Assembly: GCF_014257025.1 (NCBI RefSeq) | Contig: NZ_JACMSF010000035.1 | Coordinates: forward strand, 1-64,000 | Direction: 5' to 3' | DNA length: 64,000 nt | Source of the DNA: Streptomyces cupreus | GTDB taxonomy: Bacteria; Actinomycetota; Actinomycetes; Streptomycetales; Streptomycetaceae | Shown: positions 16,150 to 19,425 of the stretch, piece after piece | Numbering within the stretch: the first letter of the stretch is position 1 | How the letters are laid out: the number at the start of each line of letters is the position of its first letter | The notes under the pieces: model-generated | The model's database searches: none | Told to the model about the DNA's origin: nothing | Seen by the model: only the letters and a program-made list of their open reading frames with translations | Program-made: the position numbers and the translations under genes

Positions 16150-17139
16150 CTACTCGCCCTCCACCGCCGACAGCCACAGCTTCACGTATCGCTCGACGTC
16201 GACGTCCAACGCCACGTCCACCAGCCGCTGTTCACGCTCCCCGTGGTGGATCTCCGCCTCGCCCGGACGCGGACGCCGGTCGACGATCGTCTGCCCTCGG
16301 GTCGGGCCCGGCGCCAACGAGACCTCCACCGGCAGGAGTTCGGTGGTGATGCCGCCCGGGTCGACGACCGCGCAGACCGCCCCCGCGTCACCGAGCCCGC
16401 CGGACGGGTCGTCGCCGTCCGGGTCGGGGGCGGAGGGGCGGTGGGCGAGGAGTTCACCGGCCAGCCGCAGCCGCGGCTCCGAACTGGCCCGCAGGCGCTG
16501 CACGTCCGCCGCCGGGACGAGAACCCGGCTGAAGACGTCCAGCCCGTACATGGTGATCGGCACCCCGGCGGTCAGCAGGATCGCGGCGGCCTCGGGGTCG
16601 TGCCAGACGTTGAACTCCGCGACCGGCGTGGCGTTCCCGACCTCCACCGCGCCGCCCATGAACACGATCCGCTCGATGTTCCGGACCACCTCGGGGTGTG
16701 TACGGAGCAACAGCGCGATGTTCGTCAGCGGCGCGGTCGGGATCAACGTCACGGGCCGCGGCGACGCCAGGATCTCCCGCCGCAGCAGCGTCACCGCGTC
16801 GACGTCCACCGGGCGCCGGGTCGGCGCGGGCAGGCCCAGGTCGCCCATCCCGTCCTGCCCGTGCACATGCGACGCCGCGCGCACCGGCTCGATCAACGGC
16901 CGCTCGGCACCCCGCGCGACCGGGATGTCACCGGCCCCGGCCTGCTCCAGCACGGTCAGGGTGTTGCGTACGACCCCGTCCACGCCGGTGTTCCCGGCCA
17001 CGCAGGTCACCGCCCGCACATCGAGCCCCGGATGCCGTACGGCGAACAACAGGGCCAGGGCGTCGTCGACGCCGGTGTCGCAGTCGATGATCACCGGGAT
17101 GGGCTGACCGGTCACGGGCGCTCCCTCTTCGACAGTCAC
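16150..17139 (-). CDS. Inosine/uridine-preferring nucleoside hydrolase
   Basis: 329 residues. The Ca2+-binding DTGVDDAL motif near residue 20 (IIDCDTGVDDALALL) is the hallmark of the IUNH family, which cleaves the N-glycosidic bond of ribonucleosides for salvage. Further family blocks are AVTCVAGNTGVDGVVRNTL, LIPTAPLTNIALLL, IVFMGGAVEVGNATPVAEFN and, in the C-terminal half, GDAGAVCAVVDPG, where the usual catalytic His/Asp block has the form D-A-x-A-V. The ATG at 17139 or the GTG at 17115 (VTGQPIPV) could be the start. The gene follows the threonyl-tRNA synthetase gene on the same strand with 13 bp between, so read-through is likely. Confidence 0.92.
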   Translation of the reverse strand: MTVEEGAPVTGQPIPVIIDCDTGVDDALALLFAVRHPGLDVRAVTCVAGNTGVDGVVRNTLTVLEQAGAGDIPVARGAERPLIEPVRAASHVHGQDGMGDLGLPAPTRRPVDVDAVTLLRREILASPRPVTLIPTAPLTNIALLLRTHPEVVRNIERIVFMGGAVEVGNATPVAEFNVWHDPEAAAILLTAGVPITMYGLDVFSRVLVPAADVQRLRASSEPRLRLAGELLAHRPSAPDPDGDDPSGGLGDAGAVCAVVDPGGITTELLPVEVSLAPGPTRGQTIVDRRPRPGEAEIHHGEREQRLVDVALDVDVERYVKLWLSAVEGE

Positions 17140-17152
17140 TACGCAACCGACC

Positions 17153-18367
17153 TTACGCAGCCCCCCACAGTTCGGCCCCGCGAGTCCGCACAGCCGCGTC
17201 GATCCGTCGCAGCAGCTCTGCCACGGGCACCGCCCCGACCCGGCTCCCGTCCCTCAGGCGTACGGCCGCCAGGTCGCCGTCGGTCTCCCGGTCCCCGATC
17301 ACCGCCTGGTACGGCACGAGCCGGGCCGCCCGGATCCGGGCGCCGAGGGTGCCGTCGCCGGGGCCGGAGAGCTCGGCGCGGAGTCCGGCCGCCCGAGCCC
17401 GCCGTACGACCTCGTCCGCCTGCTCCACCTGGGCGTCCGCCACCGGTAGCACCATCAGTTGCACGGGGGCCAGCCAGGCCGGGAAGGCGCCGCCGTGGAC
17501 CTCGATGAGGTGGGCGACGGCCCGTTCCACACTGCCGATGATGCTGCGGTGCACCATGACCGGACGGTGTTTCGCACCGTCGGGGCCGATGTAGTGCAGA
17601 TCGAAGCGTTCGGGCTGGTGGAAGTCGATCTGGACGGTGGAGAGGGTGGACTCGCGGCCGGCGGGGTCGGTGATCTGCACGTCGATCTTGGGGCCGTAGA
17701 AGGCGGCCTCGCCCTTGACCGCTTCGTGCTCGACGCCGTCCAGCGCCTCCCGCAGCAGCGCGGTCGCCCGCCGCCACAGTTCCGGGTCGGCGACGTACTT
17801 GCCGCCCTCGCCCGGGAGCGAGAGCCGGTACCGGGACGCGCGGATGCCGAGGTCGGCGTAGGCCCGCCTGATCAGGTCCAGGGCGGCGCGGGCCTCCTGG
17901 GCCGCCTGTTCCAGGGTGCAGAAGACATGCGCGTCATTGAGGTGGATCGCGCGCACCCGGGTCAGACCGCCGAGCGCGCCCCACAGCTCGGAGCGGTACA
18001 TGTCGCCCAACTCCGCCATACGCAAGGGGAGTTCACGGTAGCTGTGGGAGCGGGAGCGGTAGATGAGGGCGTGGTGCGGGCAGAGGCTGGGCCGCAGGAC
18101 GACCTCCTCCGCGCCCAGCGGCATCGGCGGGAACATGTCGTCGCTGTAGTGCGACCAGTGCCCGGAGATCTCGTACAGCCGACGTTTGCCGAGGACGGGC
18201 GAGTACACATGCCGGTACCCGGCGGCGCGCTCCTCCTCGCGGATGTACTCCTCCAGTTCGTGGCGTACGACGGCGCCGTCGGGGAGCCAGTACGGCAGTC
18301 CCGCGCCCATGAGGGGGTCGGTGTCGAAGAGGTCGAGTTCGCGGCCGAGTCGGCGGTGGTCGTGCAT
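17153..18367 (-). CDS. thrS2: Short threonyl-tRNA synthetase lacking editing domains
   Basis: 404 residues against about 650 for full ThrRS. The TGS and SAD/editing domains at the N-terminus are absent, and the catalytic core starts almost at once. The zinc ligands are present as C96 (RPSLCPHHA), H147 (LNDAHVFC) and H273 (RPVMVHRSI). Class II motifs 2 and 3 are intact (DMYRSELWGALGGLTRVRA; GSVERAVAHLIE). The anticodon-binding domain covers about residues 300-400. It should charge tRNA-Thr but cannot clear Ser mischarging in cis. The ATG at 18367 follows GAGGGAG. The leader carries a threonine attenuator, so it should be made when Thr-tRNA is scarce. A second, full-length copy is expected elsewhere in the genome. 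Confidence 0.92.
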   Translation of the reverse strand: MHDHRRLGRELDLFDTDPLMGAGLPYWLPDGAVVRHELEEYIREEERAAGYRHVYSPVLGKRRLYEISGHWSHYSDDMFPPMPLGAEEVVLRPSLCPHHALIYRSRSHSYRELPLRMAELGDMYRSELWGALGGLTRVRAIHLNDAHVFCTLEQAAQEARAALDLIRRAYADLGIRASRYRLSLPGEGGKYVADPELWRRATALLREALDGVEHEAVKGEAAFYGPKIDVQITDPAGRESTLSTVQIDFHQPERFDLHYIGPDGAKHRPVMVHRSIIGSVERAVAHLIEVHGGAFPAWLAPVQLMVLPVADAQVEQADEVVRRARAAGLRAELSGPGDGTLGARIRAARLVPYQAVIGDRETDGDLAAVRLRDGSRVGAVPVAELLRRIDAAVRTRGAELWGAA

Positions 18368-18410
18368 GTCGTACTCCCTCGCTCAGGGGGGCGAGGAGTC
18401 CGGAAACGCT

Positions 18411-18440
18411 GAAGCCCCGGGGCGCTCGCCCCGGGGCTTC
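18411..18440 (-). terminator. Attenuator terminator hairpin before thrS2
   Basis: A perfect 13-bp stem, GAAGCCCCGGGGC with GCCCCGGGGCTTC, closes a 4-nt loop between the leader peptide stop and the synthetase start. Bases 18407-18415 (read as GCTTCAGCG on the transcript) can instead pair with CGCTGAAAGC (18453-18462) just after the leader, which would open the terminator. Confidence 0.75.
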
Positions 18441-18456
18441 GTTCGCTGCTCAGCTT

Positions 18457-18513
18457 TCAGCGCGCCGGGACCGGATCCGGCGTCGTCGTGAGAGACATGG
18501 GGGCGCGCTGCAT
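18457..18513 (-). CDS. Threonine-rich leader peptide of the thrS2 attenuator
   Basis: The 18-residue peptide MQRAPMSLTTTPDPVPAR has three consecutive ACG threonine codons at residues 9-11 (18481-18489) and a TGA stop at 18457. There is no ribosome site; instead TACCGT lies 6 nt before the ATG, the spacing of a -10 box driving a leaderless transcript. The transcript bases CAGCGCGCC (18502-18510), right after the ATG, are an exact complement of GGCGCGCTG (18458-18466) at the end of the peptide. A ribosome stalled at the Thr codons would mask the first arm and release the second to form the antiterminator. This is the classical layout of ribosome-mediated attenuation. Confidence 0.7.
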   Translation of the reverse strand: MQRAPMSLTTTPDPVPAR

Positions 18514-18666
18514 GAGGTGACGGTAGCGAGGGGTGACGGGGGCGGGCGAACGTTTTTCGCTGACCCCGCTCACCCGGACGGACCGGCGCACTGGTGGACC
18601 GCCCCGCTCGGTGGTGCCTTGAAAGCACGCACTTCGATCATGGCAGCGCCCCCAGGAGGCCACACG

Positions 18667-19425
18667 ATGCCCCGCGTCCCCATCGCCCCGGCCCTCGCCC
18701 TGGGCGCCCTGCTGACCGCGACCGCCTGCGGCGCCGGCGGATCGGACACCACGGCCAGGCCCCCGGCATCCGCCTCCCCCACCGCGTCACCGCCCACGTC
18801 CGCCCCGTCCCCGGCGTCCGCTCCCGCCCTCACCGAGGCGCAGGCCCGGGCGGCCCTGATCACCGAGGCGGACCTCGGCGAACCCTGGTCGGCGACCCAG
18901 GGCGCCGCCACCTGGCGGGACGGCATGCTCAAGGCGAGCACCGACAAGGCCGACTGCCGACGGCTGCTGGACGTCCTCTACACCGAGGAGTTCTTCGGCC
19001 CCGACGCCCGCACGCGCGCGGTGACCGGCCTGGACGACGACTGGGACGGGGCCCAGATCCGCTACCAGGTGGTGGCCCACCCGTCCAAGGACGTGGACCG
19101 CACCCTGTCCTGGCTGAAGTCCCTGCCGAAGAAGTGCGGTGAGTTCACGGCGGTGACCGGGACCGGGGCTCCGGAGTACGGCGAGGTCTACGAGACGGAA
19201 CTCCCCGAGGTCGGCGACGCCCGTCAGGGCCTGCGCATCACGCTGAGCGCCGACGACGAGACCACGCTCACGCTGGACGTGGCCGCGGTCCGCGTCGGCG
19301 ACGACGCGATGGTCCTCACCAACGGCGGCCTCGGTGACGTACCGGCCGACGCGACCTGGGTGGCGACGGAACTCGGGGCAGAGCGGCTGGCGGAGGTGCG
19401 GAAGTCGGGGCGCGCGGAGGTCTGA
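18667..19425 (+). CDS. Secreted lipoprotein of unknown function
   Basis: 252 residues from the ATG at 18667, behind AGGAGG. A lipoprotein signal (ALALGALLTATAC) gives the lipid-modified Cys near residue 21, followed by a Thr/Ser/Pro-rich linker to about residue 55. The exported domain (ALTEAQARAALITEADLGEPW and so on) resembles sensor-like or PknH-C-like lipoprotein domains common in Streptomyces, with one Cys pair (KADCRRLL, PKKCGEF). It is probably held on the outer face of the membrane. No catalytic motif is seen. The gene stands alone between the thrS2 leader and another secreted protein. Confidence 0.85.
   Translation: MPRVPIAPALALGALLTATACGAGGSDTTARPPASASPTASPPTSAPSPASAPALTEAQARAALITEADLGEPWSATQGAATWRDGMLKASTDKADCRRLLDVLYTEEFFGPDARTRAVTGLDDDWDGAQIRYQVVAHPSKDVDRTLSWLKSLPKKCGEFTAVTGTGAPEYGEVYETELPEVGDARQGLRITLSADDETTLTLDVAAVRVGDDAMVLTNGGLGDVPADATWVATELGAERLAEVRKSGRAEV

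Follow-up and report, generated by a model that had tools for sequence, protein, structure and literature searches.

A conserved threonine-codon leader upstream of a short threonyl-tRNA synthetase gene in actinomycetes, with covarying stems that point to Shine-Dalgarno control

Organization of the thrS2 upstream region

The window analysed here, a 64,000-nucleotide stretch of Streptomyces cupreus DNA, carries on its minus strand thrS2, a gene for a short threonyl-tRNA synthetase (ThrRS), preceded by a short open reading frame, thrL, and by a series of RNA segments that can pair in several ways. An earlier note on this DNA had described a leaderless threonine leader peptide with a complete attenuator at this position, and a direct check against the window found all of its coordinates to be correct on the minus strand. 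The features are listed in the order of transcription.

18552–18558, minus: WblC/WhiB7-type box GAAAAAC; its AAA begins 32 nt upstream of the -10 element
18520–18525, minus: -10 element TACCGT, 6 nt before the thrL ATG, implying a leaderless transcript
18457–18513, minus: leader ORF thrL, MQRAPMSLTTTPDPVPAR-stop (ATG 18511–18513, TGA 18457–18459)
18502–18510, minus: arm A, CAGCGCGCC, with an exact 9-bp pairing to GGCGCGCTG (18458–18466)
18481–18489, minus: three ACG (Thr) codons inside thrL
18457–18471, minus: leader end C, GTCCCGGCGCGCTGA, near-invariant by codon-by-codon conservation and stem lengths
18453–18462 with 18407–18415, minus: antiterminator of the earlier note, CGCTGAAAGC with GCTTCAGCG, one bulge
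18411–18440, minus: hairpin D:D', 13 bp, loop GAGC; 96.8% of aligned cells paired
18425–18432, minus: element E, GGGGCGAG, made up of the top and loop of the hairpin, with complementarity to F
18388–18395, minus: core of element F, CTCGCCCC, a partner of E that also overlaps the sequestor's 5' arm
18373–18399, minus: Shine-Dalgarno (SD) sequestor F:G, ACTCCTCGC paired, save for one bulge, to GCGAGGGAGT across the thrS2 SD
17153–18367, minus: thrS2, short ThrRS of 404 aa (TIGR00418)

The thrS2 product scores 434.5 bits against TIGR00418 (cut-off 383.65) and lacks the N-terminal part, since the match covers only model positions 171–563 of 565. The genome encodes a full-length ThrRS at another locus; the 900 nt scanned at that gene contained no short ORF with Thr residues in close pairs. 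Thirty full-length ThrRS loci were taken, two of which had no search motif and were left unscanned; among the 28 scanned, five had an ORF with TT and, by eye, none had the thrL pattern. On the minus strand, a nucleoside hydrolase gene (16150–17139) follows closely downstream of thrS2 in a possible operon. On the plus strand, a divergent lipoprotein-like gene (MPRVPIAPALALGALLTATACGAGG..., 18667–19425) begins roughly 150 nt away from the start of thrL and has no NCBIfam match.

Conservation of the leader ORF and its promoter

The threonine codons of thrL are strongly conserved, as is the choice among them. TTT is present in 133 of 137 leaders, and the 419 leader Thr codons comprise 406 ACG, 12 ACC and one ACA, versus 278 ACC, 3 ACT, 2 ACG and 2 ACA at the start of the thrS2 genes; in three ORFs of the window, ACC is likewise the more frequent codon (42, against 15 ACG). 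The leader may read tRNA-Thr(CGU) specifically. In a codon-by-codon comparison of the 137 leaders, the block ACGACGACGCCGGA...GTCCCGGCGCGCTGA is almost unvaried, third positions included, and is therefore constrained as RNA. The RNA at 18368–18513 also folds more stably than its shuffles (z -3.21, 2 of 200 equally good), although the conservation of the leader among relatives is the stronger argument against chance.

The same conservation bears on whether the ORF matters as an ORF. ThrRS autoregulation through an operator is known for thrS of E. coli, and the short ORF could be incidental to a conserved protein-binding RNA of this kind. Nucleotide conservation beyond coding need fits such an operator, as does one locus (L199) in which a 2-nt deletion alters the peptide end while the RNA block stays intact. 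Against it, the start codon, reading frame, Thr codons and TGA are retained in nearly all leaders, together with a leaderless promoter, and no mimic of an anticodon arm was seen by eye; we consider an operator very improbable.

A TANNNT hexamer, searched for 3–10 nt before the start codon, ends either 6 nt (53 loci) or 7 nt (116 loci) before it in all 169 loci (L052, with too short an upstream region, was omitted from the promoter count). This promoter geometry fits a leaderless transcript in this genome; S. lividans thrL is reported to be transcribed leaderless (PMC8079986). The geometry that the earlier note had derived from TACCGT is thus general, and the conserved Thr codons, hairpin and promoter geometry together support the threonine leader peptide, probably leaderless, that it placed ahead of a second ThrRS. 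That note had missed the WblC-type box.

The published WblC box, GAAAWY, lies 3 nt upstream of the -35 element (PMC7157823). The GAAAAAC of the window is a near match to this consensus rather than a strict one. Strict GAAAWY boxes 25–37 nt upstream of the -10 element are present at 68 of the 169 loci (shuffled upstream regions: mean 0.2, maximum 3), and boxes of the more relaxed form AAA[AT]/[AT]AAA at 113 (mean 1.6, maximum 5). The thrS2 gene of S. coelicolor, equated here by name with the present gene, is listed among the WblC-activated genes, and attenuation mediated by an upstream ORF is described for wblC itself (PMC7157823). A sigma-E binding site has been placed near SCO3778, a threonyl-tRNA synthetase gene of S. 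coelicolor, under ethanol stress (PMC10771440); SCO3778 is perhaps the orthologue of thrS2.

Distribution of the element

The leader was found in the window and in all 80 of the relatives examined, the best 80 of 303 relatives of the thrS2 protein. A covariance model matched 179 of 297 Streptomycetaceae genomes (E<=0.01) in 12 of 17 genera; some of these matches are weak, and a hairpin lying on the other strand reaches 35 bits. Sixty further Streptomycetaceae loci, picked by hand from among the matches listed, all have the leader, with thrS2 downstream in 59. Across the whole class, the model matched 60 of 394 genomes (E<=1e-4) in 17 of 137 genera, spanning five actinomycete families (f1, f4, f17, f18 and f19 in our numbering). 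From families other than that of the window, 35 loci were obtained, representing 33 of the 43 matching genomes there, and 31 of them have a Thr leader together with a thrS2-like gene.

Taken together, in 91 of the 95 fetched loci a Thr leader precedes a gene for ThrRS, which is short in 90 and full-length in one; the other four are one natural thrS2 deletion and three loci with another leader. In a sample of 60 genomes, model matches coincided exactly with the seven that have a short thrS, non-matches being inferred from absence in the match list; one further genome had a ThrRS fragment only, and in two no ThrRS reached the threshold.

The deletion (L168, genome G235, in the genus of the window; locus positions 1–1009) retains the leader and hairpin and has no thrS match. 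As judged by eye, all that is left of thrS2 is a C-terminal remnant, ahead of a nucleoside hydrolase gene similar to that of the window, and the only ThrRS of the genome is full-length. The locus is a natural deletion scar of thrS2.

The full-length case (L203, genome G517, about 152–310 in the locus) has a related leader, MARVFWSTTTPGISRRLSLAR-stop, before the sole ThrRS found in its genome. The hairpin top of this locus looks complementary to downstream sequence.

These loci also bear on whether the leader senses threonine at all. It might respond to slowed translation in general, including that caused by ribosome-targeting antibiotics, as the wblC upstream ORF does, with the Thr run acting as one slow stretch; the WblC-type promoter box, the place of thrS2 in the WblC regulon, the attenuation of wblC (PMC7157823) and the use of ACG, the less used Thr codon, are all in keeping with this. 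A Thr-codon run kept before a Thr synthetase across families is difficult to account for unless the leader is specific for threonine, however, and the run is kept even before the sole, full-length ThrRS found in the L203 genome. A general sensor therefore appears improbable.

The main hairpin and the pairings of the leader

Hairpin D:D' is conserved and covaries: both sides are changed at 3 of 14 pairs, a count reached by 21 of 500 shuffles, and none of the 500 reached the observed percentage of paired cells. Its mean energy is -30.9 kcal/mol. A uridine tract is absent. Within the 9 nt that follow the hairpin, the longest run of T is usually one and never exceeds three, a length reached in 2 of 167 sequences; the window, with the hairpin tail AGCGTTTCC, is one of the two. 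Of the 13-bp terminator that had been proposed at 18411–18440, the hairpin thus stands, and the U-tract of an intrinsic terminator is missing.

Upstream of the hairpin, three pairing partners are conceivable for the leader end C: A, the Thr-codon segment and a hairpin arm (GUCCCGG:CCGGGGC). Covariation gave no signal either way for A:C, B:C or C:D (385, 994 and 475 of 2000 permutations equally good, respectively), because these segments are near-invariant. The longest C:D stem reaches at least 7 bp in 121 of 137 leaders; judged by eye, C:D seems less strong in several of the species whose hairpin is shorter.

Two further pairings were considered and set aside. The antiterminator of the earlier note is present in the window, and an uninterrupted stem of at least 8 bp occurs in only 14 of 137 leaders, the window included, so that it is not a conserved part of the element; its own pairs are slightly better than swaps (13 of 2000 permutations equally good), and it may have a local role. 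A pairing of the Thr codons with GUCGU after the hairpin looked attractive in some Streptomyces; it is weak in the window, and own partners hardly beat swaps (140 of 2000 equally good). Aligning related leaders, the check that had been suggested, thus bears out the Thr codons and D:D', is uninformative on A:C covariation and goes against the antiterminator.

Taken by themselves, these pairings could form a classical transcription attenuator, with A:C as the leader stem, C:D as the antiterminator and D:D' as a terminator lacking a U-tract; the downstream pairings would then merely assist SD exposure in read-through transcripts. The segment order A:C, C:D, D:D', the frequency of C:D stems and the strength of the hairpin given above fit such a device, and the same general kind of leader precedes trpS, leuS and ilvB in Streptomyces (PMC1262725, PMC8079986). 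The absent U-tract speaks against it, as does the statement of the S. lividans authors, in the section concerned, that termination is not clear (PMC8079986).

Covarying stems at the Shine-Dalgarno sequence

Downstream of the hairpin, F can enter two alternative stems. Their covariation was assessed in alignment A3, which comprises 63 sequences with 23–34 nt between hairpin and SD, namely every third sequence of the 80-relative set and all qualifying ones from the 60-locus set. For the sequestor F:G, 82.3% of cells are paired and both sides are changed at seven of nine pairs, values reached by 0–5 of 500 shuffles depending on the measure; sliding the partner leaves 37–68% paired. For E:F, 94.5% of cells are paired and both sides are changed at five of nine pairs (0–1 of 500 shuffles, by measure), against 34–52% paired with the partner slid. 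When partners were swapped among close relatives, grouped by clustering on thrS coding k-mers (n=168), equally good pairings arose in 0–2 of 2000 permutations for E:F and in none of 2000 for F:G. Ranked against its shuffled versions, the own F of a sequence came out in the best 5% for E:F in 134 of 167 cases and for F:G in 73 of 167.

Some later sets are slightly smaller than the whole collection. L002, in which a regular expression found no SD, was left out of them; L043 and L125 (hairpin miscalled) and L168 (thrS2 deleted) are outside the 137 and the 168; and L218 (hairpin miscalled) is included in the 168 and is outside the T-run count and the own-F shuffle test.

Individual loci illustrate the co-variation of E and F. 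The loop GAAC occurs with GUUC (L057, L064, L074 and L131), GGGU with ACCC (L139 and L155), UGAGC with GCUCA (L063) and AAGU with ACUU (L170). Counter-examples exist: 10 of 63 sequences are unpaired at the central columns 24:65, and 11 of 63 at 26:63. Among sequences with a variant loop, 31 of 41 have a better partner in their own F than in the mean F from sequences with a GAGU loop, and the window is one of the ten that do not favour their own. Its E:F pairing is modest, with 8 bp and an energy of -19.0 versus -15.6 for shuffles, and is worse than the mean with the F of other sequences (-22.4).

Same-branch co-changes on the tree number three for E:F (null mean 0.8, maximum 3.4), four for F:G (mean 1.1, maximum 4.5) and four for D:D' (mean 0.3, maximum 2.0). 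In our view this test has little power because many changes pass through G-U pairs, and on its own it is not enough to establish E:F or F:G. Overall, the comparison of sequences gives good support to the existence of E:F and F:G as alternative stems. Of the complete attenuator of the earlier note, the leader and the hairpin hold; a covarying SD sequestor and a covarying anti-sequestor pairing had been missed. A classical attenuator would leave both covarying stems unexplained.

Folding at different ribosome positions

Equilibrium folds of the 137 sequences form the hairpin and the sequestor alike in the free, Thr-stalled and stop states. The mean hairpin probability is 0.95–0.96 in all ribosome states, SD pairing falls below one half in 3–6 of 137, and F:G is present in the fold of the window. 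C:D exceeds a probability of 0.5 in none of the 137 folds while D:D' is allowed, another point against a classical attenuator, which on all of this evidence we regard as somewhat unlikely. Three mutually exclusive structures succeeding one another, as previously suggested, are not reproduced by these equilibrium folds, in which the hairpin stays at every ribosome position tried.

When the hairpin was weakened by an energy penalty, E:F competed with the sequestor. Under this penalty, E:F exceeds 0.5 in 75 of 137 sequences in the free state, 50 in the Thr-stalled state and 113 at the stop codon, and SD pairing drops below one half in only 23, 13 and 49, respectively. The order of E:F between the stalled and stop states (50 versus 113) is the opposite of what a simple model expects. 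Of eight short-hairpin species folded, L216 alone shows part of the relay at equilibrium: its stalled state has a hairpin probability of 0.08 and an E:F probability of 0.59, as against 0.99 and 0.01 at the stop codon, with the SD still 0.76 paired when stalled. Since equilibrium folding holds hairpin and sequestor together in all states, a switch, if real, must be kinetic and co-transcriptional.

A model of thrS2 control

The element is real, conserved and functional-looking. The reading that we prefer, and regard as evenly poised, is that thrL is a leaderless, Thr-codon leader-peptide attenuator of the spare thrS2 gene, with an output at least partly translational and a WblC-type promoter. 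It starts from the leader and its conservation, the leaderless promoter geometry, the covariation of D:D', E:F and F:G and the absence of a U-tract; ribosome stalling, the engagement of C with the hairpin, the direction of the switch and the action of WblC in this species are inferred, the trigger and direction from the way in which leader peptides generally work.

According to this model, A:C, C:D, D:D', E:F and F:G would form an alternating chain in which D:D' goes with a sequestered SD and E:F with an open one. With charged tRNA-Thr plentiful, the ribosome would complete the leader and D:D' would hide E; F would then pair with the SD region (F:G), and thrS2 would be off. A ribosome stalled at the ACG codons would instead cover arm A, leaving the leader end C free to act against D or D', and E, once freed, would capture F and expose the SD. 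With a promoter of the WblC-activated kind, translation stress would raise thrS2 transcription, and the leader would add a check on charged tRNA-Thr.

A wider formulation, which we put forward tentatively, is that of a widespread actinomycete translational attenuator in which the hairpin top mimics the SD region and is its rival for a third strand. In the same relay, a ribosome stalled on rare ACG codons would free the SD of the spare ThrRS, and the WblC promoter would make of it a gate for antibiotic plus tRNA charging. The element probably lets the cell make a spare ThrRS when charged threonine tRNA is short. The model, in which a spare synthetase of antibiotic producers would be switched on under tRNA or translation stress, is testable by compensatory mutations.

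Relation to known leaders

The earlier note knew of no description of such a leader; thrL of S. lividans TK24 (SLIV_19412, before thrS SLIV_19410) in fact appears in Table 4 and in the text (section 14) of a 2021 study (PMC8079986). It is reported there as leaderless, with the sequence MKRVRPFLETTPGFVPAR-stop, and shares with the leader of the window an MKR...TTP...VPAR-stop pattern before thrS, followed by one hairpin without uridine-rich sequence. The window leader has the thrL-type pattern, a Thr-codon short ORF of the form MKR/MQR...TTP...VPAR-stop before thrS. The section on S. lividans thrL names two threonines and leaves termination unclear (PMC8079986); SD control would explain both the lack of a U-rich sequence and this uncertainty. 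An SD sequestor, the E:F pairing, the WblC box and the distribution, all given here, are absent from that section. The leader itself is thus already known from one species, and the mechanism first proposed from the window is partly supported. What is added is its conservation in five actinomycete families and covarying stems that point to SD control rather than to a textbook terminator.

In Streptomyces, the trpS, leuS and alaS attenuators likewise have a cognate-codon leader ORF before a synthetase gene, several of them leaderless, and that of leuS differs from thrL in a hairpin with a U-stretch (PMC1262725, PMC8079986). Seliverstov et al. (2005) predicted attenuators before trpS and leuS, and the passage concerned reports no conserved structures at threonine operons (PMC1262725). 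The SD box is likewise paired in the LEU element of leuA and in the translational ileS T-boxes of Actinobacteria. LEU further resembles thrL in its leader peptide; there, however, it is the leucine codons that base-pair with the SD, and ileS relies on a T-box (PMC1262725). In thrL, unlike either, the top of a hairpin and the SD would vie for a third strand. No family of Rfam 15, the T-box included, matched in the window at the gathering score, and a search of the open-licence PubMed Central literature found no description of an SD sequestor or of an E:F pairing for thrS.

Mycobacteria have leaderless upstream ORFs encoding polycysteine. They resemble thrL in being leaderless and in carrying a run of the sensed amino acid, and differ in that amino acid and in the operons concerned.

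The three fetched loci with another leader (L210, L214 and L215) encode a peptide with FWRFYGY near position 151 of the sense strand, and in L210 the downstream gene is that of a DAHP synthase. Their match to the thrL model is weak, and they have the arms ATGCAGC...GCGCTGA in common with thrL.
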